Shown here in pieces: positions 4,915 through 59,220 of a stretch of DNA of 64,000 nucleotides. How positions within the stretch are numbered: the stretch's first letter is position 1; each line of letters opens with the position of its first letter. The notes below the pieces were generated by a model that saw only the letters and a program-made list of their open reading frames with translations, was not told where the DNA came from and made no database searches. The position numbers and the translations under genes were made by a program. Source of the stretch: Notolepis coatsorum (taxonomy: Eukaryota > Chordata > Actinopteri > Aulopiformes > Paralepididae); assembly GCA_963971535.1 (NCBI GenBank), contig OZ020599.1, forward strand, positions 93,507,765-93,571,764, written 5' to 3'.

Positions 4915-5490
4915 TTAACCCTTTCCCTACCACACTACAAAGGGTTAACACTTTCACTACCACACTACAAAGGGTTAACACTTTCACTACCACACTACAG
5001 AAGGTTAACCCTTTCGCTACCACACTACAAAGGGTTAACGCTTTCACTACCACACTACAGAAGGTTAACCCTTTTGCTACCACACTACAAAGGGTTAACG
5101 CTTTCACTACCACACTACAGAAGGTTAACCCTTTCGCTACCACACTACAAAGGGTTAACGCTTTCACTACCACACTACAGAAGGTTAACCCTTTTGCTAC
5201 CACACTACAGGTTAACCCTTTCACTACCACACTACAAAGGGTTAACACTTTCACTACCACACTACAAAGAGTTAACGCTTTCACTACCACACTACAGAAG
5301 GTTGACCCTTTCACTACCACACTACAAAGGGTTAACGCTTTCACTACCACACTACAGAAGGTTAACCCTTTCACTACCACACTACAGACTGTTTCTGTTA
5401 ACCTTCTGTGGTGTGGTAGTGAAAGCGTTAACCCTTTGTAGTGTGGTAGTGAAAGGGTTAACCTTCTGTAGTGTGGTAGTGAAAGGGTTA
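4915..5490. repeat. 30-bp minisatellite ending in inverted copies
   Basis: The unit (actttcactaccacactaca then aagggttaac) repeats every 30 bases from 4915 to about 5388. Three copies in the opposite orientation then follow (5399-5490). Each unit also carries a short internal palindrome, aaccctt/aagggtt. Because 30 is a multiple of 3, long repetitive ORFs exist on both strands, but I see no sign of a gene. Confidence 0.92.
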
Positions 5491-6540
5491 AGAAGCTGAT
5501 CTGATTTGTCACAAACATTTGAATCCATCCAGAAATACACTGGCACCAGTGTATTGGTGTTTTGGTTTTCGAGGTATCAAAAGTAGAAATGGTTAGAATT
5601 TGAGTTTAGTATTAGCAATACTAGTGATAGTCAATTGTGTGAGGACGTCGTTTGGAAGGCGCTAACAGTGATTTTCCAGAGACCTGCTAACCACTCTTCC
5701 ATTGACTTCCACTAGCGTTTCACCCTCAGTGAACTAAAGACTAAAGCACAGAATGACGAGCCCAATGTCCCTTACTGAGTGGCTGACTCCCTGTTGTTGA
5801 AACATGCACGCGTGAGTCTGGCTTAACTAGACTCGCTAATGCCTAGTCTTGTTTTTCCAATATTGCCTGTCTATTACATTACCCTAAAATGTTGTCCATA
5901 ACCTGGGGAATACAAGCATGTAGGAAGTGGGACTACATTTGTAGTTTAGATATTTAAAACCACTTCCTAAACACACTTTTGACCAGGTCTCGTGTCAGAC
6001 AGGAAACCGGGGATCCTATACCACCACAGAAGAAGAATTAATAGAACACAGTGCTGGAAAAGGAATCTTTGCGACAAACGCTGAGCTCGTAATTGCCCTG
6101 CTGAGAGGTTGTTCTTTGTGCCATTGACTTACAGCGGAGTGAATATTATCTTAGCGCAAAGGTGCTTCTGGCGTAAATAGTAACATAATCAGCAGTGGGT
6201 GGACCAATGCTTTAGATTTGCATTTAACTGTCAAAATGATCTCTACCTTTAGTGGGGTGTTTTGTCCCCCCCTGTTGGTGGGATGAAATTTCCCCCCAAA
6301 ACGTACATTCCAGGACCGAGGACCTTTTGTCTGCAATGGCCGTGTCCTCCAGCTCAGAGGAGTTGTCTTTAACCTGTAGTCATTCAACGTGTTCTCATGA
6401 ACCCATTCCTTAGCGTGTGCTATGAAAAGTTGTGGACCAATTTTTGCCGCGTTGCAACTCCTCTGACTTTTTGTGGTCGTTATGATGAACTTATGGTTAG
6501 GTTTAGGTTAAGGTTAGGGTTAGGTTAAAGGTAGCATCCG
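5491..6540. other. Interval with no recognisable feature
   Basis: I see no exon, recognisable transposon end or tandem array. The only simple sequence is a short ggttaggtt/ggttagggt stretch near 6496-6530. Confidence 0.5.
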
Positions 6541-15689: not shown

Positions 15690-16211
15690 AAAAAAGATGA
15701 GAGATGGAAAAATGATGTCACTGGATAACCACTAACCACCCACAATACGAATACAATGAACCAAATAAACTCCAATACCTGGAAAAAACAACGAAATAAC
15801 CATCTAAATAACACTCACCCCCCAATCTACCCGGAAGGAGAAAGCCAGGGGGGGTACGTGAGTCCCCCCCTGAACCATACCATAACCCAAATGCTCTATA
15901 GGAGCCACCCACTTCCTCAGAAAAGGCAAACAATTTCATGAATACTTATTAAATATTGCCAAAATGTGTGTGATTTTATAACCATTTTACATTTTCAGCA
16001 CAGGCACTGTTAAATGGGTAAGTATAAACAGCTATAACTGAATCGTATTTTAAATATTTACAATTGAGAACATGTTAAATAAATAATTGATAAATAAAAG
16101 GGAAAATATTTGTGTCTACATCTCCCCACCAAACTCCACATCGTACAGCACTTGTTGAAAGCGCATTCTTCTGATCAGAGACCCGCCATTGAGGACCCCA
16201 GACGGATCCTA

Positions 16212-16868
16212 CTAATCACCCCAAAGTACCAGAAAATACCCTAAAGTACCCCAAAATACCCCAAAGTATACCCCAAAATACCCCAAAGTATACCCCAAAG
16301 TATACCCCAAAATACCCCAAAGTACCCCAAAGTATACCCGAAAATACCCCAAAGTACCCCAAAATACCCTAAAGTATACCCCAAAGTACCCCAAAATACC
16401 CCAAAGTACCCTAAAATACCCCAAAGTATACCCCAAAATACCCCAAAGTACCCCAAAATACCCCAAAGTACCAGAAAATACCCCAAAGTACCCCAAAATA
16501 CCCCAAAGTACCCTAAAATACCCCAAAGTATACCCCAAAGTACCAGAAAATACCCCCAAATACCCTAAAATACCCCATAATACCCCAAAGTACCCCAAAA
16601 TACCCCAAAGTACCAGAAAATACCCCAAAATACCCCAAAGTACCCTAAAATACCCCAAAGTATACCCCAAAATACCCCAAAGTACCCTAAAATACCCCAA
16701 AATACCCCAAAGTATACCCCAAAATACCAGAAAATAACCCAAAGTACCCCAAAATACCCCAAAGTATACCCCAAAATACCCCACAGTACCCCAAAATACC
16801 CCAACATATCCCAAAATACCCCAAAGTGCCTGGAAATATACCACAAAGTACCACAAAATACCTAAAAT
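16212..16868. repeat. Left outer satellite arm (taccccaaa type)
   Basis: Alternating taccccaaaa and taccccaaag/gtataccccaaa units. Inverted counterpart at 29486-30227. The aromatic- and Gly-rich ORFs here are products of the repeat. Confidence 0.95.
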
Positions 16869-16890
16869 GAAAAACTAAAATGTGCACATT

Positions 16891-17144
16891 TTGTGTAATA
16901 GTGTAATAGTGTGTAATAGTGTAATAGTGTGTAATAGTGTAATAGTGTGTAATAGTGTGTAATAGTGTAATAGTGTGTAATAGTGTAATAGTGTAATAGT
17001 GTGTAATAGTGTGCTAGTGTGTAATAGTGTGTAATAGTGTAATAGTGTGTAATAGTGTAATAGTGTGATAGTGTAATAGTGTGTAATAGTGTAATAGTGT
17101 GTAATAGTGTAATAGTGTGTAATAATAGTGTGTAATAGTGTAAT
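16891..17144. repeat. Left inner satellite arm (gtgtaatag type)
   Basis: Tandem 8-10-bp units of taatagtg/taatagtgtg. It is interrupted at 17145 by the BEL LTR and resumes at 26807 in the same orientation. Confidence 0.95.
17140..17144. repeat. BEL target-site duplication, left
   Basis: GTAAT directly precedes the LTR and is repeated at 26807-26811 directly after the other LTR. Confidence 0.85.
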
Positions 17145-19174
17145 TGTAACTGAGGGGTACAATTCCCTGACTGTATTGATAAGTATGGTATCATTAAACC
17201 ACTACCGCTTTATGTACTTTAACTACTGGCCATACAGTACACAATATATGAATATGATGAACACTTCCCACAATGAAATCGGTTCCAGTCAAAGGTATTA
17301 ATCAAGTATTTAATGGAGCAAAAGGTACATATGATACTTATATTACATTTGATTGCACTTGTAAGGCAAATGAGTATTCGTAGGCAAATCAACACTGAAT
17401 GTCCATTCTCTGGTTACGCAGGAGGCAAGTATACAACCTGGCTCTTAGGGAATTATATCTATGGTACACTTAATGATATAGCGGGATATACTGGAAGGGG
17501 TCCTCCCGGTTGTAAGCCGGCAGGGGGGGTAGGAGAGCTGTCGGTAGTAGAACGTCTGGTCAACGATATCTAGGGAGACTTCGAGTACAGAAGACAGTGC
17601 GATAGACTCTTGATCCGCAGACGAATACAGCTTGGTTCTCTTGTAGGCTGTAGCTCCACAGTGAAGAAAGCTAGGCGGCCTCAGGCTCTCTGAGCGCCGA
17701 CTCGACCTTGACTCCTCTCGGGGTAAATCCAACGCTCACAGGCGTCGGCGATTATCCGCTCCACAAATCACAGTACCAAAGCAAATATATATTCCAGCCG
17801 CACAGGGCTATGCAGACGTCGGGTAGGTAATCCAGTGTACATGTCCATTCGGTCCTCGCCTAGATCTCCTCGGATGAAAGCGCCATGTGGTCGGCCCAGC
17901 CTGGATAAGAATCTAGCTAACACGAGGAAGCGTTGGAGATGCTGGTCACTTTAGAACTCTAACCGCACGATGCACCATACACAATAGACTATTATTAACT
18001 TAATAGAAATACGTCGCACTCGACGGTACAGTGCCAAACTCTGACAATTCAGTTATTAATTCGCACGCGGTCTCAATGCTATTCTGGGGCCAAACAGGCC
18101 ATACTTCACCGCACGTCGTATCGTGGGTGAGGCTTGATTTGATTTGATTTGATTTGAAGTCTTTATTTCGAACATGCAATGAATACAACAAACAATAACA
18201 AAAAAAGAAAAACAACTCAATCTGCATGTTCGAAAAGGAGTAGGAAGAAGTATACACTTATTTAATCCTACCCCTTTTCCACTACTCAAATGAGTGTACT
18301 ATTTTAAACATAAAAAAGAAAAGAAAAGAAAAGAAAAAAAAAAAAAATATATATATATATATATGCAAAACAAAAAACAAAAACTATATATGTATAAAAT
18401 AAAATAAAATAGAAACAAAATAAAAATGTAAACACCTGTGAATATCAAGTCCCTTCTTCATCCCTGTACCTTGTGAACATAATTTCCTTATACATCAGTT
18501 TGAATTGTCTCATGTTTGGACATTGCTTTAACACCACATTAAGACTGTTCCACAGTTTCACTCCACATATTGAGATGCAGTGTTTTCTCATGGTAGTGCG
18601 TACGTTTAGCACCTTTAAATTGTGTTCTCCCCTCAGATTATAACCCCCCTCCCTATCAAAGAACAATTCTTGAATGTTTCTTGGAAGTGCATGACTTTTT
18701 GCTTTATACATTAATTGTGCCGTTTTAAATTCCACAAGATCATTTAACTTCAATGTCTTTGACTCCAGAAACAATATGTTAGTGTGATCACGATAACCTA
18801 ACGATAAGGCTTCACGTTGGTTACTAAGTTTCTGACTAAGACTAAGTGCTTCTGTATTCACTTGCGCCATATTTATATGCACGGTGAACAAATAGTGCCA
18901 CTCTCATTTCTGTCGCCGTATCCCTGGGCAGGGCCGGGGCTAGTACAGACATGTCTTGTCGGTAACTTTGAACTTGACTCCGGGGGCTGGTCCCCTGGCG
19001 CCTGGTCCTTTGTCCAATAGGAGAATGAACTATTATGGGCTATAGTAGGCTAAAGGGATATTCTGTGTATATGTACAAGGAATATACAAGGGATATCAAA
19101 CGACATACAAATACTATTCAATATATATCAACAAACAAATATATATACTCGGTTTAATCTGATCCTTCGTAACA
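17145..19174 (-). repeat. BEL 3' LTR (with internal LINE insertion)
   Basis: Starts tgtaactgagggg and ends tccttcgtaaca. It is 2030 bp, against 1353 bp for the other LTR; the whole difference is the insertion at 18136-18812. Confidence 0.93.
18136..18812 (-). mobile_element. 5'-truncated non-LTR element inside the BEL LTR
   Basis: A 677-bp insertion flanked by AGGCTT (18130-18135 and 18807-18812) and absent from the other LTR. On the minus strand it encodes the C-terminal end of a LINE ORF2 (LGYRDHTNILFLESKTLKLN, then KLWNSLNVVLKQCPNMRQFK) and ends in tandem AAATC, a LINE-type 3' tail. The clade is uncertain (CR1/L2/I-like). Confidence 0.85.
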
Positions 19175-19267
19175 GCCGCTCCCTAATTAGTCCCACCTAA
19201 TTAGCTAAGCAGAGACAGATTAACCGCACTGTCCACTACTCAATGTCTGCTGTGAGGGTCAGTCAAT

Positions 19268-22200
19268 TCACAAAGTCATGGGGTCATGGTCGTCATCGAT
19301 GGTATCGGGGAGCCTTGGCAGTTCTATTAGCCTCGCCACGGGTCGGGTGTAGGTCCGCCCTTGGACGAGCACTTCAGCTGCTCGGACCTTTCCGTCGGCA
19401 CCGGTGATCACCTTGCCTACGCGGCCAGCCGGCCACATAGCTCGGGGTAGTGACTGGTCGATAATCATGACGACTGTTCCTTCTGTCAAATTGTCTCTCT
19501 CTTTTACCCATTTCTGGCGGGTCTGTAGAGACGGTAGGTAGTGGAGTAGGAAGCTGTTCCAAAACTTGTCAGCCAATACTTGACTGTACCTCCACGTTCT
19601 TCGGCCGTTCGCTTCTTCAGGCCTGTACATTGTCTGGGGTAGCGCGGGGTCCAGCCGCCCCATCAAGAGTGTGTTGGGGGTGACTGGGTCGACATCTGCT
19701 ACATCACTTGAGACGTAACCGAGGGGCTTTGAGTTCAATACTCCCTCAATCTCCGTGAGGACTGTCATTAAGACTTCTTCCGCCACGGTCTGGGCCCCAA
19801 GCACGGCGTACAGGGCTGTCTTTATGGAACGTACTTCTCGTTCCCAAGTTCCACCGAAGTGAGGTGCGTTCGGGGGATTAAACTGGAAGTCAATCTGGGA
19901 TGGAGCGAGGTGGGTCTTAAGTTCTGGGCCCATAGCTTGGAAGCTCTCTCTCAGCTCTCTTTCTCCGCCTTTGAAGTTTGTCCCGTGATCAGACAATAAT
20001 GTAGACGGTTTTCCTTTCCATGATGTGAATCTTCGGAAGGCCATAAGGAATGAGTCTGTGCTCATGGTTGGAAGGAGTTCGATATGTATCGCTCGGGTGG
20101 TCATGCATTTGAATACAATACCCCACCGCTTCTTGGTTCCTCTTCCTTTCTTTATATACAGCGGGCCGAAACAGTTCATACCGGTGGAGTGAAAGGGCTT
20201 GTCGCCGAGTCGGAGGCAACAGGGAGGTAGGTCTGCCATCCGGGGTATACTGGGCTGTGCTCGCCACTTACGACAGTCTAGACAGGTTCGCTGGAAGCGC
20301 CGCACTGCTTCTCTCCCTTGCAGTATCCAATAACGACGTCTGATCTCCGCGAAGACTCTCTCTGCCCCTGCATGGTGCACATCCTCGTCGTATTTCTTTA
20401 TGATCAGCTCTGTGACCTTGTGTCGGCTGTTCAAGACTATCGGGTACTTGACGTCATCCGGTAAGTCTGGGGCTCTCCGCAGACGACCACCCACTCTGAT
20501 GAGACTATGGGCGTCGCTCTCGGGTGCTAGGTGGAGCAGTCTGCTGTCTGATGGGACGGGCTTTGCTCCCTGTAGACAGTCTAGCTCGTCGGGGAACGAG
20601 TCTCTCTGGGCTCGTTGTAGTAGAAGAAGTTCTGCTTCTTCGTAGTCAGCTGCTGAAATGTCAGTAGTGGGCTGAACCTCTGGGTGGTGCCACAGAAATG
20701 TCTTTAGCTGCGCACTCTCTAGGGTGAGGCAATCGTCTATGTCGGGGTCTGTGGAGACGAGTGTGTTCAATCCACAGAACATAGATTTCTTGTTTTCGGC
20801 CTCCTCTTTACTCGCCTCCCGTGGGGTGGGTGTAGGCCACTCTTCTTCCGGGAGCTTGAGAAACTCTGGTCCGTCACTGTATAGGTTGTGACGGGTGAGG
20901 TCATCCAGGGACATTCCCCGGGTGATGACGTCAGCTGGGTTGTGTTTTGTGTCCACATACCTCCAGCTCGCTACTTCTGTTAACTCTTGAATCTCTGTGA
21001 CTCTGACTCCCACGAAAACCTTGTATCTGCACGAATCAGACCGGATCCATGTGAGTACTGTCGTGGAGTCTGACCACAAGATTGTTCTTTGCACCGGAAT
21101 GGTGAGTTCACGTTGGATTAACGTGGCGAGCTGCGCTCCTGCTAGGGCTGCGCAGAGCTCTAGACGCGGGATAGATTGTTGCTTTCGTGGGGCTATTCTT
21201 GAGCGAGCCAGGATGAAAGCAGTATGTATTTCTCCTCCCTCCTCTCGGGCACGCAAGTAAGCCACCGAACCGTAGGCTACTTCGGAGGCGTCGCTGAAGA
21301 CGTGTAGATCCATCTTGCATGTCTCTGGCCTCACTGTGGGTGGGAAGTAGCTGCGGCGTATGTTAACACCTGGGAGTGAGCGGAGTTCCGTCTCCCACTC
21401 TCTCCATGTGGATGCAAGGTGTTCGGGTATGGGGTCGTCCCAGCTCTGGTCCTTGTCCCATAACGCTCTTACAATCATCTTTGCCCTGGTGGTGTAAGGT
21501 AGAATACATCCCAACGGGTCATATTGTCTGGCGAGTGTTCTGTATACACTCCGTCTGGTGGTCGGTAGTGCCGTCGACCTTCCCTGCTCCTTGGTCAGGG
21601 GTTTGTGTCTATAATGGAGCGAGTCTGTTTTGAAGCGCCAGACTAGTCCTAGTGTCATTTCTTGGGCTTCTCCTGGGATGGTCGCCATCCAGGTCTCGCT
21701 GCTCGCTGCCTTGTCCTCAGGGGAGAGGCTGCGCAATACTTGCGGGTCGCTGCTGGCCCACTGCCTGAGATCAAAGCCGCCTTTGATCAGGGAGGCGCGG
21801 AGCTTGAGTAGAAGAGCCTCGGCTTCTTCTGGCGTCGAGACGCTTTGCAAACAGTTGTCCACGTAGAAACTATTTCCTACACTTTGTCGGACCTCTTCAT
21901 CTGCTGCTGGGTCCTCTGCGACGTGTTTTTGCAGTGCAAACGTGGCACAGCATGGGCTGCATGTGGTTCCGAAAGGGAGGACTTCCCATTGATAGATGGC
22001 TGGTTGCTCATCCCCGATCCTCTCTCTCCATAGGAACCGCAGCAGGGGCTTGTCCTCCTCCACTAGTCTCACCTGCAGGAACATCCCTTTGATGTCGCCG
22101 CTGATGGCCACCTGGTCCTGGCGGAAACGTAGTAACACGCCTAGTAGAGAGGGGCCGAGTGTTGGGCCGGGCAAGAGCTCTTTATTCAGATTTTGTGATC

Positions 22201-25162
22201 CGATCTGGTAGCTGCAGTTGAACACAATACGATCCTTGCCGTTGTGGTGGACTTTGTGGTGCGGCACGTACCATGATTCGGTCGTCTGATCGGCCTCTTT
22301 AATGTCAATTTTCTTTATGTGTCCCGCTGTGATTAGCTTGTTAATCTCAGCGCGGTACACAGTCTCTTGAGCGGGGTCTCTGGCTAGGCGCCGCTCTGTG
22401 TTCAATAGATACCGCTCCGTCGCTTCTTTTGTGGCGTGAAAGGTAGGCATACCCTCTCGCCTCAGGAGTGGAGTTGCGTATCTCATCACTCCATTGACGT
22501 TGACTCTCTTTGTCCCTTGCTCGAGGAGGGCTATAGCGTAAATGTCTTCCTTGGAACGAATGTCTTTCCTTTCGTTCTTAAAGGGCATTGTCTCTAGTGT
22601 CCATAGCCTCTCGACGTGCTGTAGGAGAGTGGTGTCTTCTTCTGTCACTCTGGAGTGGAGGCAGTTAGTGGCTGCTGTTCGGTTAAGAGACTTAGCGAGG
22701 GGGCCTTGTAATGTCCATCCTAGGCGGGTCTCGACTGCTGCAGGACAGCCTCTGGGTCCTGTGTGGACCCGGTCTATCGGGACTATGAGGTCTGCATGGT
22801 CGGAGCCTATCAGCAGGGTCGGGGTGGCACCGTCTATGAGCGGGATAGGTAGTTGGCGCAGGTGCACATATTTATCCATCAGCTTGGCGATGGGGTAGGT
22901 GTACTGTGATAGGCCTATTTCTTGGCTGGTGAAAGCATTAGTAATCCTATACCGTCTCTCTGGCTGCCCGCTTGCTGCGATAGTGAAGGAGACATTCTCG
23001 CCCTTTATCGTCTTTAGATCTCTTCTTATTGTCCGAATCGTCATCTGGTTTTCGCTCCCCCGCAGCCCCAGCTGGGCCGCAGCGGACGCGAGGAGAAGGG
23101 TCTTCTCTGACCCGTCGTCAAGGACGGCGTAAGTGTCCATGACCTTATCTTGGTAACTCAGTGTTACGCGGACCACCTTTAAGAGCACCTGGGCGCCCCC
23201 GCTGCTGGCGGGGTCAATGTACATAACACTTGCCTTTGTGCTGCTGGAAGGTGCAGGCTTTCTTCTGTTACTGTCGTGTAGGACATCTAGGTGGGCTCCG
23301 TCACACCGACTACACCTCTTCTTTAAGCGGCAATCGGCTGCCATGTGACTGCGCGCACATCGGTAACAGCGTCGGTTGGACTTTATCCATTGACTCACTT
23401 CTTCAGCGGTCATCTTCTTGAACATGTCACATTGTGACAACCAGTGTTCCTTTTCGCAGTACGGGCACACCATCTTCCACTTCTCTTTCATCGAGGGGGT
23501 ACTGTGGTTCTTGCTGCTCGGTACTGATTCTGATTGGTGCATGACAGTCACCAATCTTCGGCCATCGTTTGCTCTCCTAGGTCCCTCTCTGGAGCTTGGT
23601 GTGCTCCGCACGAACGTATCCAATCGTAGGCTGCTGACTTCTCTCGCCAGGAAGTCGGCTAGGTCTAGGAGGGATGGCTCGGGACCGTTAGGATCACGGT
23701 GGTCTCTTTGCCGCCTGAAGCGCTCTTGTCGGGCGGGCGGCAGCTTCTCTAAAATCCTCTCGACATTAGAGTTTGCGTATAGTTCGTGCATACCCTTTTC
23801 TCGTTGCGCCCCCAGCATCCCTACCAGGGATTGTACTTTGATAGACAGGTCGTCTAGTGAGCGATTGTCTGTTGCTGGGGGTAGGCGGTCAATATGCCTT
23901 ATCTCTTGTATTACGTAATCCCATATGCGTCCATATCTTTGGTCGAGCGCTGCTAGAGCCGCTGTGTATGGGGTAGTAGAGGTGGCATAGGCTAGCGCTA
24001 TGTTGTGCGCTCGGGGCACCTTGAGGTGCTTCAATAGGATAGCATACTTGTGGCGTTCATCAGCTACGTCAACCATCATTGTCTCTAAGCACATCCGTAA
24101 CTCCGTGTACTGTGCTCGGTTCTCATGGGTGAAGTCTGGAAACGTCGGTGTGCCAATGTATGACGCCGTAGATGGCTGGCACATCGGTGAGCGTTGGAAG
24201 AGAGGCCTCCTAGGCGAGTCTCCTCTTACGCCTCTCGGTGGGCTGGTACCGGCAGGGTACCATGGCCCGCGTATCCAGGTGCTATTCCTCGGGACTGGTC
24301 GTGCGTCATGCTCACCCGTGAATAGAGTCGGGGGTCTGTAGCGCTGGACCTCCTGGTCCTGTGGAGTACTGTGCTGCTGTCGGGCTTGACTCTCCTCCTC
24401 TCCCTCTTCTTCTTCTGTCAGGTCATCTAGATCCTGTAGTCGTCTATTTAGCCTCTCCGCGGTGTACACCGTTCCTTCCTTGTAGCTGGGTCTCACTGGG
24501 ACCGGTCGGGGAAGGGGTTCGGAGGGGGGTATAGGCTCTCTCTGGTGGTCGAGTTCAGGGTCGCTTGATCGGTTAGGGGAGGGTGCCCTTGACCCGTGTC
24601 TTGACGAGGCCCTGGAACCCCGTGCGGAGGGAGGGGGTGTTGCCTTGGCGATCAGCTGCTCCATTAGCTGCGCTTGTATTCTGTCGCGCTCTGCTTCTCT
24701 TTGGGCACCGGCAGCGGCACGCTGGGTGTCGGCCCGGTCTCTTGCCATATTCTCTTCCGTCTGAAGGCGTCTAATCTCTAGACGTATACGATCTTCGTCG
24801 CTCCGTTGCTGCGCTTGAATGCGTTCTCTTTCCATGGAAGAATGTTCGCGCTCACTAAGCGTCTGTGCTTGGAGTCGATCGCGCTCTGTTGAGGCTGCTA
24901 GGCTGGCGAGGAACGCCTGTGCCAGCATCTTGTCCGCCTCGCTGGGGGAAGACGCTGGTTGAGGTGATCCGCTCCTGGCAGTACTCGTTGGAGATGCGTT
25001 CTCCTGCGGGGAGTCCTGGGGCTCTATCTCCGCGGCGCTCTCCTCATCTTGTACCGTGCAGAGTTCCATCTCTGGAGGGTTGTCTTCCTCCCGGAGCTCT
25101 CCGGGGACTACTTCTTCGGTCTTGGCGGGGGGTAGTCGTGTCGGTTCCCTCCTGGTCCCCAC
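19268..25162 (-). CDS. BEL/Pao gag-pol polyprotein (most of it)
   Basis: The frame is open from a stop near 25178; the given start is a GTG codon, so the real start probably lies in the overlapping upstream frame. It has 1964 codons. Domains in order: a charged, probably coiled-coil gag region (about 80-170); CCHC-like Cys/His knuckles near 564-615; aspartic protease with LDDGS near 680; reverse transcriptase with YVDN near 1099; RNase H with FSDAS near 1288 and WSDS near 1361; and integrase, comprising an HHCC zinc region, then a core with Asn at residue 1663, Asp in SDHGTNF near 1723 and Glu in GTWERE near 1772. The order PR-RT-RH-IN and the N-terminal knuckles are those of BEL/Pao. The proteins would copy the RNA to DNA in a cytoplasmic particle and insert it into the genome. 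The first integrase acid is normally Asp, so this copy is probably integration-defective. Confidence 0.93.
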   Translation of the reverse strand: MGTRREPTRLPPAKTEEVVPGELREEDNPPEMELCTVQDEESAAEIEPQDSPQENASPTSTARSGSPQPASSPSEADKMLAQAFLASLAASTERDRLQAQTLSEREHSSMERERIQAQQRSDEDRIRLEIRRLQTEENMARDRADTQRAAAGAQREAERDRIQAQLMEQLIAKATPPPSARGSRASSRHGSRAPSPNRSSDPELDHQREPIPPSEPLPRPVPVRPSYKEGTVYTAERLNRRLQDLDDLTEEEEGEEESQARQQHSTPQDQEVQRYRPPTLFTGEHDARPVPRNSTWIRGPWYPAGTSPPRGVRGDSPRRPLFQRSPMCQPSTASYIGTPTFPDFTHENRAQYTELRMCLETMMVDVADERHKYAILLKHLKVPRAHNIALAYATSTTPYTAALAALDQRYGRIWDYVIQEIRHIDRLPPATDNRSLDDLSIKVQSLVGMLGAQREKGMHELYANSNVERILEKLPPARQERFRRQRDHRDPNGPEPSLLDLADFLAREVSSLRLDTFVRSTPSSREGPRRANDGRRLVTVMHQSESVPSSKNHSTPSMKEKWKMVCPYCEKEHWLSQCDMFKKMTAEEVSQWIKSNRRCYRCARSHMAADCRLKKRCSRCDGAHLDVLHDSNRRKPAPSSSTKASVMYIDPASSGGAQVLLKVVRVTLSYQDKVMDTYAVLDDGSEKTLLLASAAAQLGLRGSENQMTIRTIRRDLKTIKGENVSFTIAASGQPERRYRITNAFTSQEIGLSQYTYPIAKLMDKYVHLRQLPIPLIDGATPTLLIGSDHADLIVPIDRVHTGPRGCPAAVETRLGWTLQGPLAKSLNRTAATNCLHSRVTEEDTTLLQHVERLWTLETMPFKNERKDIRSKEDIYAIALLEQGTKRVNVNGVMRYATPLLRREGMPTFHATKEATERYLLNTERRLARDPAQETVYRAEINKLITAGHIKKIDIKEADQTTESWYVPHHKVHHNGKDRIVFNCSYQIGSQNLNKELLPGPTLGPSLLGVLLRFRQDQVAISGDIKGMFLQVRLVEEDKPLLRFLWRERIGDEQPAIYQWEVLPFGTTCSPCCATFALQKHVAEDPAADEEVRQSVGNSFYVDNCLQSVSTPEEAEALLLKLRASLIKGGFDLRQWASSDPQVLRSLSPEDKAASSETWMATIPGEAQEMTLGLVWRFKTDSLHYRHKPLTKEQGRSTALPTTRRSVYRTLARQYDPLGCILPYTTRAKMIVRALWDKDQSWDDPIPEHLASTWREWETELRSLPGVNIRRSYFPPTVRPETCKMDLHVFSDASEVAYGSVAYLRAREEGGEIHTAFILARSRIAPRKQQSIPRLELCAALAGAQLATLIQRELTIPVQRTILWSDSTTVLTWIRSDSCRYKVFVGVRVTEIQELTEVASWRYVDTKHNPADVITRGMSLDDLTRHNLYSDGPEFLKLPEEEWPTPTPREASKEEAENKKSMFCGLNTLVSTDPDIDDCLTLESAQLKTFLWHHPEVQPTTDISAADYEEAELLLLQRAQRDSFPDELDCLQGAKPVPSDSRLLHLAPESDAHSLIRVGGRLRRAPDLPDDVKYPIVLNSRHKVTELIIKKYDEDVHHAGAERVFAEIRRRYWILQGREAVRRFQRTCLDCRKWRAQPSIPRMADLPPCCLRLGDKPFHSTGMNCFGPLYIKKGRGTKKRWGIVFKCMTTRAIHIELLPTMSTDSFLMAFRRFTSWKGKPSTLLSDHGTNFKGGERELRESFQAMGPELKTHLAPSQIDFQFNPPNAPHFGGTWEREVRSIKTALYAVLGAQTVAEEVLMTVLTEIEGVLNSKPLGYVSSDVADVDPVTPNTLLMGRLDPALPQTMYRPEEANGRRTWRYSQVLADKFWNSFLLHYLPSLQTRQKWVKERDNLTEGTVVMIIDQSLPRAMWPAGRVGKVITGADGKVRAAEVLVQGRTYTRPVARLIELPRLPDTIDDDHDPMTL

Positions 25163-25385
25163 CGTGAGCTTGGTCAGTTACATTAGAACCCACTAGGGCC
25201 TCTGTGGTCGGGGTATCCTGGTTGATAGGGTCGGACATAATTTTACTTTCTACTTTTACCGCGTTTACCGTCTGTAGAAGGCTAGGTAGTATACTGGCAG
25301 CGTAATCCTCTAAGTACTGAGGTGGCTGCCGTCTACGCTGCGGGCGATCTACTTTAGGAGGACCGTTTTGTGGAGTGTTCATCAT
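25044..25385 (-). CDS. BEL gag N-terminus, in another frame
   Basis: Starts at tandem ATGs (25380-25385) with MMNTPQNGPPKVDRPQRRR and includes PPQYLEDYAA, similar in style to fish BEL gag starts as I recall them. The frame is +1 relative to the long gag-pol frame and overlaps it by about 130 bases. A run of six C on the minus strand (25127-25132) lies in the overlap. The coding match moves naturally from one frame to the other around that run. This could be a one-base indel, a sequencing error in a homopolymer, or a programmed shift. Confidence 0.65.
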   Translation of the reverse strand: MMNTPQNGPPKVDRPQRRRQPPQYLEDYAASILPSLLQTVNAVKVESKIMSDPINQDTPTTEALVGSNVTDQAHGGDQEGTDTTTPRQDRRSSPRRAPGGRQPSRDGTLHGTR

Positions 25386-25434
25386 AGGCCATTTCAATAT
25401 TAATACCACTATATTAATATTACACTAGTTACCC

Positions 25435-25451
25435 TCCGGCTCGAAGGACCA
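25435..25451 (-). promoter_or_regulatory. BEL primer-binding site, tRNA-Tyr
   Basis: The 17 plus-strand bases tccggctcgaaggacca equal the 3' end of vertebrate tRNA-Tyr including CCA, as I recall that sequence. They lie two bases from the 5' LTR, where the primer-binding site is expected. Confidence 0.85.
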
Positions 25452-25453
25452 AT

Positions 25454-26806
25454 TGTAACTGAGGGGTACAATTCCCTGACTGTATTGATAAGTATGGTAT
25501 CATTAAACCACTACCGCTTTATGTACTTTAACTACTGGCCATACAGTACACAATATATGAATATGATGAACACTTCCCACAATGAAATCGGTTCCAGTCA
25601 AAGGTATTAATCAAGTATTTAATGGAGCAAAAGGTACATATGATACTTATATTACATTTGATTGCACTTGTAAGGCAAATGAGTATTCGTAGGCAAATCA
25701 ACACTGAGTGTCCATTCTCTGGTTACGCAGGAGGCAAGTATACAACCTGGCTCTTAGGGAATTATATCTATGGTACACTTAATGATATAGCGGGATATAC
25801 TGGAAGGGGTCCTCCCGGTTGTAAGCCGGCAGGGGGGGTAGGAGAGCTGTCGGTAGTAGAACGTCTGGTCAGCGATATCTAGGGAGACTTCGAGTACAGA
25901 AGACAGTGCGATAGACTCTTGATCCGCAGACGAATACAGCTTGGTTCTCTTGTAGGCTGTAGCTCCACAGTGAAGAAAGCTAGGCGGCCTCAGGCTCTCT
26001 GAGCGCCGACTCGACCTTGACTCCTCTCGGGGTAAATCCAACGCTCACAGGCGTCGGCGATTATCCGCTCCACAAATCACAGTACCAAAGCAAATATATA
26101 TTCCAGCCGCACAGGGCTATGCAGACGTCAGGTAGGTAATCCAGTGTACATGTCCATTCGGTCCTCGCCTAGATCTCCTCGGATGAAAGCGCCATGTGGT
26201 CGGCCCAGCCTGGATAAGAATCTAGCTAACACGAGGAAGCGTTGGAGATGCTGGTCACTTTAGAACTCTAACCGCACGATGCACCATACACAATAGACTA
26301 TTATTAACTTAATAGAAATACGTCGCACTCGACGGTACAGTGCCAAACTCTGACAATTCAGTTATTAATTCGCACGCGGTCTCAATGCTATTCTGGGGCC
26401 AAACAGGCCATACTTCACCGCACGTCGTATCGTGGGTGAGGCTTCACGTTGGTTACTAAGTTTCTGACTAAGACTAAGTGCTTCTGTATTCACTTGCGCC
26501 ATATTTATATGCACGGTGAACAAATAGTGCCACTCTCATTTCTGTCGCCGTATCCCTGGGCAGGGCCGGGGCTAGTACAGACATGTCTTGTCGGTAACTT
26601 TGAACTTGACTCCGGGGGCTGGTCCCCTGGCGCCTGGTCCTTTGTCCAATAGGAGAATGAACTATTATGGGCTATAGTAGGCTAAAGGGATATTCCGTGT
26701 ATATGTACAAGGAATATACAAGGGATATCAAACGACATACAAATACTATTCAATATATATCAACAAACAAATATATATACTCGGTTTAATCTGATCCTTC
26801 GTAACA
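25454..26806 (-). repeat. BEL 5' LTR
   Basis: A 1353-bp LTR. It differs from the 3' LTR by four substitutions that I can see (for example ctgagtgtcc against ctgaatgtcc) and lacks the 677-bp insertion. In element orientation it is the upstream LTR and would carry the promoter. Confidence 0.93.
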
Positions 26807-27801
26807 GTAATAGTGTGTAATAGTGTGCTAGTGTAATAGTGTGCTAGTGTGTAATAGTGTAATAGTGTGCTAGTGTAATAGTGTGTAATAGTGTAATAGT
26901 GTGTAATAGTGTGCTAGTGTGTAATAGTGTAATAGTGTGTAATAGTGTGCTAGTGTAATAGTGTGTAATAGTGTAATAGTGTCTATTACACTATTACACA
27001 CTATTATACACTATTACACGATTACACACTATTACACTATTACACTCTATTACACACTATTACACAAAATTACACTATTACACACTATTACACTATTACA
27101 CACTATTACACACTATTACACTATTACACACTATTACAATATTACACTATTACACTATTACACTAGCACACTATTACACTATTACACACTATTACACTAT
27201 TACACTAGCACACTATTACACACTATTACACTATTACACACTATTACACTATTACACTATTACACTAGCACACTATTACACACTATTACACACTATTACA
27301 CACTATTACACTATTACACTATTACACACTATTACACTATTACACTATTACACTAGCACACTATTACACACTATTACACACTATTACACACTATTACACT
27401 ATTACACACTATTACACTATTACACTAGCACACTATTACACTATTACACACTATTACACTATTACACACTAGCACACTATTACACTATTACACTATTACA
27501 CTAGCACACTAGCACACTATTACACTATTACACACTATTACACACTATTACACTATTACACACTATTACACTAGCACACTATTACACTATTACACACTAT
27601 TACACTATTACACTATTAAACACTATTACACTATTACACACTATTACACTATTACACACTATTACACACTATTACACTATTACACTAGCACACTATTACA
27701 CTATTACATTATTACACTATTACACACTAGCACACTATTACACTATTACACTAGCACACTATTACACTATTACACACTATTACACTATTACACACTATTA
27801 C
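26807..27801. repeat. Inner satellite containing the foldback axis
   Basis: Units of gtaatagtg type run to 26979, then a 3-base loop (tgt, 26980-26982), then the complementary ctattacac units to 27801. The two sides can pair over a long stretch. Confidence 0.95.
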
Positions 27802-29344
27802 TGTAGCTAAGGGGCTACACAACCCGGACTGTATTAAAGATTGTTTAGATTAAACCACCACTAAGGAATATTAATAGCCAGACAGTATAGTTAGACAAAA
27901 TGGCGGACACTCAATTGACTGCGCGGGGACAGGGATACCAGGTTAATAAGCATTTTAATAGTCATAGTAACATACATATCAGTTATCACGGTTCTCCTTT
28001 AATAATAGAATGTCAGTGTATCAAAGTCAGCGGTAATGAGTAGTTCCTAGGTTACGGATACTCGACCGGAGCTCTGCAGGGAGTGAGACGAAACGAGGCG
28101 ATACTGGGAAAAGCAAATGGTAGCTGGAGACGATGGTTTCCCTCTAGAGCTCCAAGCTCCGGAGGAACTGTAGACCGGTCGGATAATCCTGTCGCCGCTG
28201 GAAGAAAGGGGTCTCGTACGGAACCGGTCCTTGTAATCCTAGCGCCCGATGGCAGGGTTAATAGCTATTAATCCAAAAGCCCGTTGGCATAGATGGTAGC
28301 TAGCTAGCTTCGTTTGTACTGGAAGCTAACCCGCAGACGGTCTCCAATGAGTAGTTATATCCAAACGGCGCTGGGTTTAACTATAAGTCTCTCCACTTTA
28401 CTTCGCTTACACGAGTCACTATACTGTGCCAATAATGGCTCTACAATATTATAGTCGTATCTAAGTAGCCATTAGCTCTCTGTAACGATACACTGCTTGT
28501 AGGTCTGTGTACAACTGTACCGGACGTATCACGCTCTCGCTCTGCTACTTCTCCTGTTATGTTACTGCCGCAGCGGCTGCTTGCACCGTCTACAATATAT
28601 ATACTCAAAACTGATCCCTATGGGGCTCAGCCCATAGATATATATAGAACACTAGATAGCTTGCCCGCGCTGCCGGCCAATGGAGAGCGACGTCACTGAA
28701 CCGCCGCCATCTTGCTCCAGTTAGCCTTGAGTGAGAGTGAGTGAGCTGCACAAACAAAAATACTCATAACTCGCTGAAATATTGACGGATTTACAAACGG
28801 TTTGGTTTATTACAAGCATTATTAACGTGGCTATGATTCAAGCGGTTTGTAAAAAAAAACATCTTTAAATTTTTTTTTTATAAGTATGCAGTATCATAAC
28901 TACATCTTTGATGTTTATAGCAAACCAACCCGTTTGTAAATCCGTCAATATTTCAGCGAGTTATGAGTATTTTTGTCTGTGCAGCTCACTCACTCTCACT
29001 CAAGGCTAACTGGAGCAAGATGGCGGCGGTTCAGTGACGCTGGTGACTCCGCCTTAAGCTATCTAGTGTTCTATAGATATCTATGGCTCAGCCGATTCAC
29101 CTGTACAGAATCAATGCGCTTGCTCTGGGCTAGTCTGAACGTGTCTGAACATGTCTAGAAACCATGTCTAGGGGGCGCGTCTCTGGCGCCTACAACGTCA
29201 AGGATGGGACCCAATGAGGCGAGCGAATAATACTATTATGCAAACAGATGGCGTAAAGATATATATCTTATATATATAAACAATATACAAGTTATACAAA
29301 ATAATAAACGCAGACTTTCAGTGTTAATCTGGACCTTCAGAACA
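27802..29344 (-). mobile_element. Solo LTR of a second, related BEL element
   Basis: Starts tgtagctaaggggctaca and ends ggaccttcagaaca, both resembling the ends of the BEL LTR next to it (tgtaactgaggggtaca; gatccttcgtaaca). It is flanked by ATTAC (27797-27801 and 29345-29349). No internal region is present, so it is a solo LTR left by recombination. It is more diverged than the two LTRs of the full element and contains a MITE. Confidence 0.85.
28633..29085. mobile_element. Palindromic MITE inside the solo LTR, 453 bp
   Basis: Inverted ends (catagatat and atatctatg, continuing through agaacactagatagctt). Long inner arms pair (actcataactcgctgaaata with its complement near 28950-28975). It is flanked by an 8- or 9-bp duplication, (g)gctcagcc, at 28624-28632 and 29085-29093. 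That duplication size fits hAT or Mutator-type elements. No ORF. Confidence 0.85.
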
Positions 29345-29464
29345 ATTACACTATTACACTATTACACTATTACACACTATTACACTATTACACTATTACA
29401 CACTATTACAGTATTACACTATTACACACTATTACACTATTACACACTATTACACTATTACACA
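29345..29464. repeat. Right inner satellite, remainder
   Basis: Continuation of the ctattacac satellite after the solo LTR. It is followed by the palindromic linker aaaatgtgcacatttt (29466-29481). Confidence 0.93.
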
Positions 29465-29485
29465 AAATGTGCACATTTTAGTTTT

Positions 29486-30227
29486 TCATTTTAGGTATTT
29501 TGTGGTACTTTGTGGTATATTTCCAGGCACTTTGCGGTATTTTGGGATATGTTGGGGTACTTTGGGGTATTTTGGGGTACTGTGGGGTATTTTGGGGTAT
29601 ACTTTGGGGTATTTTGGGGTACTTTGGGGTATACTTTGGGGTATTTTGGGGTATACTTTGGGGTATTTTGGGGTACTTTGGGGTATTTTCTGGTATTTTG
29701 GGGTATACTTTGGGGTACTTTGGGGTATTTTGGGGTATTTTAGGGTACTTTGGGGTATTTTCTGGTACTTTGGGGTATACTTTGGGGTATTTTAGGGTAT
29801 TTGGGGGTATTTTCTGGTACTTTGGGGTATACTTTGGGGTATTTTGGGGTACTTTGGGGTATTTTCTGGTACTTTGGGGTATTTTAGGGTATTTGGGGGT
29901 ATTTTGGGGTATTTTCTGGTACTTTGGGGTATACTTTGGGGTCTTTTAGGGTATTTTGGGGTATTTTAGGGTATACTTTGGGGTATTTTGGGGTACTTTG
30001 GGGTATTTTAGGGTACTTTGGGGTATTTTGGGGTATTTTCTGGTACTTTGGGGTATACTTTGGGGTACTTTGGGGTACTTTGGGGTATTTTCTGGTATTT
30101 TGGGGTATACTTTGGGGTACTTTGGGGTACTTTGGGGTATTTTGGGTTATACTTTGGGGTATTTTGGGGTATACTTTGGGGTATTTTGGGGTACTTTAGG
30201 GTATTTTCTGGTACTTTGGGGTGATTA
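29486..30227. repeat. Right outer satellite arm (ggggtattt type)
   Basis: Complement of the left outer satellite, with the same terminal order of variants near the element end. Confidence 0.95.
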
Positions 30228-30373
30228 GTAGGACCCCACCAGACTCATGCTGCAATATATAATAGGTCTATCGGATTTTACCCACCAGGTGGCGCCATAA
30301 TTGCATATAACCCATAGGTCTTGACACCAAGTCCGATGCATGGTTACATCCCTGCTCAGGCTACTACGCCAAG

Positions 30374-58859: not shown

Positions 58860-59220
58860 TGGCAACATCAGAGGGCTCTGTGCGGCGCTTTAATCAACCT
58901 CAGAGGGCTCTGTGCGGCGCTTTAATCAATGGGAGGACGAGCACAACCTCAGAGGGCTCTGTGCGGCGCTTTAATCAATGGGAGGACGAGCACAACCTCA
59001 GAGGGCTCTGTGCGGCGCTTTGATCAATGGGAGGACGAGCACAACCTCAGAGGGCTCTGTGGCGCTTTGATCAATGGGAGGACGAGCACAACCTCAGAGG
59101 GCTCTGTGCGGCGCTTTAATCAACCTCAGAGGGCTCTGTGCGGCACTTTAATCAATGGGAGGACGAGCACAACCTCAGAGGGCTCTGTGCGGCACTTTAA
59201 TCAATGGGAGGACGAGCACA
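58860..59220. repeat. 49-bp minisatellite
   Basis: About eight units with acctcagagggctctgtgcg, then gcgctttaatcaatgggagg and acgagcaca; two units are shortened. Confidence 0.93.

Follow-up and report, generated by a model that had tools for sequence, protein, structure and literature searches.

The foldback transposons FB of Drosophila and TU of sea urchins have inverted arms built of repeats, and FB makes a 9-bp target duplication. Here we analyse a foldback element at positions 16204-30236 of a 64,000-nucleotide stretch of contig OZ020599.1 (forward-strand positions 93,507,765 to 93,571,764; "the window" denotes this whole stretch), from a host presumed to be a fish. The element is very probably a non-autonomous palindromic copy of a Mutator (MULE) foldback transposon family, whose copies have common ends and 8-bp target duplications, for which an empty site is found, and whose coding sister copies carry the same ends and outer satellite. 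The closest published match to this family in organisation is Tm1, a Mutator/Foldback element of root-knot nematodes, followed by Tetris of Drosophila virilis. The excerpts of the Tm1 paper available to us describe composite ends of ~14-bp tandem repeats in variable number, with asymmetric outermost motifs; target duplications of 8-10 bp, 9 bp being commonest; coding, histone-hairpin and miniature inverted-repeat transposable element (MITE)-like members with common ends; and a 496-residue Phantom-like transposase with a FLYWCH domain (PMC3169594). Tetris, in the corresponding excerpts, is a non-coding foldback whose ~220-bp arm tandem repeats expand into satellite arrays, with duplications of 8-10 bp, an affiliation to Mutator suggested by its authors and no coding partner in the portions available (PMC4079207).

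A 2019 survey of MULEs provides the wider frame. In the portions of that survey available here, evidence from chordates is limited, one sea-squirt sequence excepted; reports from zebrafish and mammals are considered probable misidentifications; and two questions are left open, namely whether vertebrates truly lack MULEs and what significance the long, variable ends of these elements have (PMC6446971). The family described here matters because that survey doubted vertebrate MULEs. The same portions list Rehavkus, from arthropods and annelids, as having a PHD finger, a minisatellite beside an end, a MULE-related DDE transposase, one open reading frame and 9-bp duplications, with no mention of an OTU domain in the text on Rehavkus; an ovarian-tumour (OTU) motif is listed for the cnidarian MULE MuDR-6_HM, and 8-bp duplications are listed for Spectre (PMC6446971).

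The transposase, ends and duplication length of the present family identify it as a foldback MULE. It resembles Tm1 in its variable tandem-repeat ends, its coding and non-coding members that share ends, and its MULE-type transposase, but differs in its 8-bp duplication, its ~10-bp outer repeats, a second satellite in hairpin copies, and a putative PHD-OTU-MULE protein of 1,311 residues. Unlike Tetris, it has a coding partner, and its outer units are ~10 bp long. A borderline PHD match, joined to the transposase only through the predicted splice, and the satellite are reminiscent of Rehavkus, compared here by description; the duplication is 8 and not 9 bp, and the family is not filed under Rehavkus. 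Foldback MULEs are known from Tm1; the novelty lies in the two-satellite arms, the predicted fusion of domains and, in what is presumed to be a fish, MULE genes with open frames. Searches of the open-licence PMC literature listed no family of this kind, a scope outside which Repbase and most subscription papers lie.

Architecture of the window element

The window element is 14,033 bp long, and its arms are inverted copies of each other. In each arm, an outer TACCCCAAA satellite leads to a conserved linker and then to an inner GTGTAATAG satellite, after which the same parts follow inverted. The features, in window coordinates, are:

16196-16203, no strand: left target duplication CCCCAGAC, 7/8 identical to the right copy, register set by other copies
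16204-16240, plus strand: left terminal inverted repeat core GGATCCTACTAATCACCCCAAAGTACCAGAAAATACC (GGGTCC... in the family)
16218-16862, plus strand: outer satellite, left arm, ~10-bp TACCCCAAA units, also present in the arms of transposase-coding copies
16864-16892, plus strand: conserved 29-bp linker with 16-bp palindrome AAAATGTGCACATTTT
16893-17144, plus strand: inner satellite, left arm, outer part, GTGTAATAG units
17145-26806, minus strand: BEL retrotransposon, a later insert with 5-bp duplication GTAAT, recognised by long terminal repeat (LTR) pieces and a long minus-strand frame
26812-26979, plus strand: inner satellite, left arm, remainder
26980-26982, no strand: palindrome centre, 3-base loop TGT
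26983-27801, minus strand: inner satellite, right arm, inner part
27802-29344, no strand: solo LTR, a later insert with duplication ATTAC and with its own inverted-repeat insert
29350-29463, minus strand: inner satellite, right arm, outer part
29464-29492, minus strand: conserved 29-bp linker, right arm
29494-30222, minus strand: outer satellite, right arm
30200-30236, minus strand: right terminal inverted repeat core, ending ...GATTAGTAGGACCC
30237-30244, no strand: right target duplication CACCAGAC

Counted inward from 16207 and 30233, the arms show 86 bp of exact inverted identity, which bears out, and lengthens, the run of at least 45 bp given in a preliminary description of the locus; the order of parts given there (outer satellite, 16-bp palindromic linker, inner satellite, loop at 26980-26982) is also what we find. 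The outer satellite arms pair as inverted copies with gains and losses of units, and the palindrome AAAATGTGCACATTTT (16 bp) lies at 16877 and 29464, within a 29-bp inverted block. Subtraction of both inserts and the extra target copies leaves 2,818 bp, in agreement with the ~2.8 kb of almost pure hairpin proposed earlier as regards size. The hairpin is not symmetric: the inner satellite measures ~930 bp on the right and ~420 bp on the left, a more than twofold difference. Sequence comparison shows that the left 37-base core is that of a coding copy at C23:44355551-44364703, except for GGA in place of GGG.

Across 1,359 aligned bases the LTR pieces of the BEL element show 4 differences, so its insertion is young; the foldback element is older than the BEL element inserted in it. 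The BEL element has a stop-to-stop frame of 1,969 residues on the minus strand, and its left LTR holds an insert of ~670 bp. The solo LTR contains a MITE-like inverted-repeat insert at ~28646-29075 with ends GAACACTAGATAGCTT, and comparison of the solo LTR with the rest of the window gave no match. Four satellite and end words tested have no occurrence in the window outside the element, and an Rfam search of the window gave no match. Other tandem arrays in the window lie at 657-1645, 4915-5491 and 58863-59220, the second comprising a 30-bp array at 4915-5386 followed by an inverted array at 5397-5491.

Ends, target duplications and an empty site

A search of the 3.42-Gb assembly to which the window belongs (G000) with window positions 16205-16300 gave 98 matches, the best 40 of 1,122 candidates being scored, and the best matches other than the window's own start at query base 3 or 4. 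The stretches around the 40 scored places, with the window's own two excluded and with two pairs of places each sharing one stretch, constitute 36 loci (L009-L044). Together with the window, these loci contain 53 end-like places. At 44 of them GGG precedes TCCTACTAATC; the other nine are variants, one of which is a satellite unit and not an end. The GGG/CCC ends of other copies therefore place the window boundaries at 16204 and 30236, shifted from the 16205 and 30233 first assigned, and set the target duplication as CCCCAGAC/CACCAGAC, in which 7/8 bases match. A first guess of a 9-bp duplication was dropped once the other copies set 8 bp.

The true element end is GGGTCCTACTAATCACC; the left end of the window copy reads GGA instead. 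This exact 17-bp end occurs 976 times in forward and 963 times in reverse orientation, 1,939 in all, and the reversed word, used as a control, occurs 0 + 0 times in the same assembly. Because copy numbers count exact ends, altered copies are missed. The first 100 listed places all lie on contig C1 and include 30 neighbouring inward-facing end pairs less than 30 kb apart, with spans of 0.6-22 kb.

The target duplication of the family is 8 bp, constant in length. In a first set of 13 end pairs, window included, read in one fixed register, 7 pairs reach at least 7/8, compared with 0/156 mismatched combinations at 6/8 or more; with adjusted ends, L023 rises to 8/8 and L026 to 6/8. A second set comprised 20 of the 30 C1 pairs, two seen before and eight short ones being left out. 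Eleven pairs match at 8/8 and four at 7/8 (together 15/20, with target words differing between copies), one matches at 6/8, and the others match at 5, 3, 1 and 0 of 8; 456 mismatched combinations of this set reach 6/8 once and never more. One C1 pair with three right ends is counted three times in both tally and control. At L073 (C1:113928398-113928525) three right termini stand in tandem, with the target word TCAGCGGG after each; these repeated end-plus-target units perhaps reflect aberrant end processing, slippage or insertion of the element into its own target. L031, at position 476-500, has no target duplication (4/8), and its outer flank opens with ~19 bp of inverted outer satellite. The BEL elements and a kelch-like gene in L015 fit a fish host, the view taken in the preliminary description, but do not prove it.

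The copy at C1:122105553-122118207 sits in a BEL LTR, with target CTCGTATG at 8/8, and its empty site is provided by the window's own BEL LTR. Specifically, the joined flanks (300 + 292 bases, with one target copy) align to window 17145-17655 with no gap at the junction and with 456 identical columns of 536. Two transposase matches within this copy mark it as one that codes, or once coded, for the enzyme. For 13 copies, empty sites were sought within the fetched sequences, and none was found there. The window element is thus one copy of a large mobile family in the same genome. Shared ends at many places, an 8-bp duplication and an empty site uphold its first description as a foldback-type mobile element, and the presence of its ends elsewhere in the genome, on which that description had hinged, is seen in the 1,939 exact occurrences.

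Coding sister copies and their transposase

A MULE (Mutator-superfamily) transposase lies inside sister copies that have the family ends and the outer satellite. Three loci (L019, L034 and L037) have a common coding interior, 93-99% identical over pieces of 254-1,259 bp, and L019 together with L047 makes up one complete copy, in which the ends are present, the duplication matches at 7/8 (TCACTAAA/TCAATAAA) and inserts break up the gene. A protein search of the assembly, in which 125 of 283 candidates were scored, gave 128 matches. Among the matches listed, 23 places share a score of 681.5 bits, and at least 14 places lie in a 1,092-residue frame without stops. As read from sequence, the 23 equal-scoring places and the open frames suggest recent movement and are not proof of present activity. 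Within the first 147 Mb of C1, each of the five listed transposase loci is on the inward side of an exact end that faces it correctly and is no more than 6.2 kb away; 0.35% of random points are so placed.

One open coding copy, C23:44355551-44364703, was read whole. It is a complete copy of 9,153 bp with exact ends and a target duplication, TAAAAAAA, at 8/8, which is A-rich and so weak alone. Its outer-satellite arms of ~1.4 and 1.3 kb correspond to the long terminal inverted repeats that are common, though not universal, in Mutator elements. The first frame contains a putative PHD finger, which Pfam scores at 24.8 bits (cut-off 24) over the first 84 residues and at 20.8 bits, below cut-off, when more sequence is included; it also contains an OTU domain, at 26.9 and 26.1 bits (cut-off 23.3). 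Removal of a putative 896-base intron, with GTGAGT as its donor and TTTTTATAG as its acceptor, would link L088 position 1326 to 2223 and join this frame in phase to the 1,092-residue frame, and one GT-AG splice would thereby give a PHD + OTU + MULE protein of 1,311 residues. After the splice junction the protein reads VNHFVPL, which could supply the OTU histidine; the Pfam OTU match stops short of VNHFVPL. The MULE domain scores 28.7 bits on the L034 piece (cut-off 27.6), and the motifs GVDRTF, GSDQE, CSKH and TNNNCEAMNH, at 766, 843, 866 and 960, are taken by us to be the MULE catalytic motifs. The transposase also has a weak IS256 match of 19.4 bits, far under its cut-off of 150. A solved-structure search with the 1,092-residue frame gave no match at E up to 1; with the PHD-OTU part it gave 24 weak matches (E 0.011-0.86), mostly to PHD-finger chains and to OTU and other ubiquitin-protease chains. 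In its N-terminal half the transposase frame has tandem repeats of ~65 residues (L088 2180-5455), which form a coding minisatellite in the middle of the 1,311-residue protein.

The family thus has a Mutator-like duplication (8 bp, within the range of ~8-11 bp) and a MULE-type DDE transposase in its autonomous copy, together with the long inverted arms of tandem short repeats, varying between copies, that define foldbacks. Merlin and Zisupton, considered from the 8-bp duplication, and the P and hAT superfamilies were dropped on the MULE domain. FLYWCH, a Phantom trait, is not among the Pfam matches of either frame (E up to 1) or of shorter pieces (E up to 10), and THAP, the domain of P-element foldbacks such as Galileo, is not among the domains that Pfam reported, which were MULE, PHD and OTU.

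Kinds of copies, movement and significance

The 36 loci include several kinds of copies. The 16-bp linker core, at no more than 2 mismatches, is present in 19, at least four inner-satellite units are present in 18, and the transposase frame is present in 3; the arm order of the window copy recurs at many loci. The shortest satellite arms in the family measure ~130 bp and the longest several kb. L010, complete at 395 bp, has outer satellite alone; its DNA forms a strong hairpin, with a fold of -142.7 kcal/mol compared with a shuffle mean of -53.5 and 0/100 shuffles as low. The palindrome centre GTGTCTATTAC is common to the window, L021 (twice) and L038, with a near variant in L028, and centres differ in L011, L017, L018, L027 and L033, which together indicate a partly shared palindromic ancestry. 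L042, which has the linker and pieces matching the coding-copy interior, may be intermediate between hairpin and coding copies, a reading weakened because these interior pieces match many hairpin loci as dispersed repeats. The interiors of the first copies, inspected for a shared core, in many cases hold long interspersed nuclear element (LINE), BEL, Gypsy and other inserts.

We propose that the PHD-OTU-MULE transposase binds the ends and probably also repeated sites in the outer satellite, the latter by analogy with Galileo, for which the available portions of the Tetris paper report extra transposase binding sites (PMC4079207). The transposase would excise the element and reinsert it with an 8-bp stagger, by cut-and-paste acting in cis and in trans, and hairpin copies such as the window element would be mobilised in trans. 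Arms may lengthen or shorten via slippage or unequal exchange. The hairpin sub-line would have arisen by loss of the gene and acquisition of the linker and inner satellite, its two arms becoming joined head to head around them; the BEL element and another LTR afterwards inserted into the window copy's inner satellite. The lack of coding capacity stated in the preliminary description thus applies to the window copy and not to the family, which has coding sisters. Its suggestion of dependence on another transposase is right for the window copy, the gene being identified in sister copies with the same ends.

It is quite improbable that a MULE gene of foreign origin came by chance to be nested in the satellite arms and that the foldbacks are moved by a different, unseen transposase. 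The coding loci without linker and inner satellite, and the many interiors with unrelated inserts, would fit such nesting, but the same coding interior recurs at three loci at 93-99% identity, the family ends and duplication of the C23 copy directly enclose both arms and gene, and the five C1 transposase loci all face a family end, far above the random expectation. It is highly improbable that recombination or segmental duplication of satellite arrays, and not transposition, was the main route of spread. Such a route would account for the long outer-satellite arrays of L016, L029 and L040 (where outer-satellite words cover 4,939, 5,030 and 4,386, respectively, of 6,504 fetched inward bases), for the repeated ends of L073, for the 4/20 C1 pairs at no more than 5/8, and for L034 (ends C30:101904468 and 101905961), in which flank plus end are tandemly duplicated with a period of 1,493 bp; the 15/20 pairs at 7/8 or 8/8 with differing target words, and the existence of an empty site, argue against it. 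The spread by recombination envisaged earlier is therefore not needed for target-duplicated copies, and recombination is likely to be a way of changing arm length. Palindromic satellites are hard to assemble, and the locus is known from assembly alone, yet separate loci have copies whose target words differ, centre junctions are shared and one copy is complete at 395 bp, all of which make it scarcely credible that the inverted structure is an assembly artefact.

Several observations weigh against the assignment of the window element to a MULE foldback family. The window's own target duplication carries one mismatch; 6 of the 13 first-set pairs fall below 7/8 in the fixed register, L043 being 0/8, and L031, L032 and L036 remain at 4, 5 and 6 of 8 after end adjustment. 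The 36 loci are a biased sample, chosen as the places that match the window's end best, and many are open at the inner side. On the whole 1,092-residue frame the Pfam MULE score is 26.6 bits, just below the cut-off of 27.6, and the PHD-OTU-MULE splice is read from GT-AG signals. Neither the linker (at no more than 2 mismatches) nor inner-satellite units were found in the three loci with transposase, the C23 coding copy has only a linker-like place with 4 mismatches, and the window copy has nothing in common with that coding copy beyond the 37-bp end, the outer satellite and the length of the target duplication. The coding copies thus do not account for the inner half of the hairpin.

For the biology of the host and the family, we lean towards a broader view, in which a vertebrate, presumably a fish, harbours a recently and perhaps still active MULE lineage, in which the transposase forms a fusion with a PHD chromatin reader and a deubiquitinase-like OTU domain. 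The satellite arms would act as landing strips for the transposase and as seeds of kilobase arrays, and the two-satellite palindromic sub-line would be the successful parasite of the lineage. The transposon is a carrier, and likely a source, of dispersed satellite DNA. With open coding copies, abundant exact ends, mostly clean duplications in the sampled pairs and variable satellite arms, the family bears on both questions of the 2019 survey, and a defined pair, the ends and the transposase gene, is now available for tests in cells. If true, a fish MULE lineage would answer yes to the question of whether vertebrates have MULEs.

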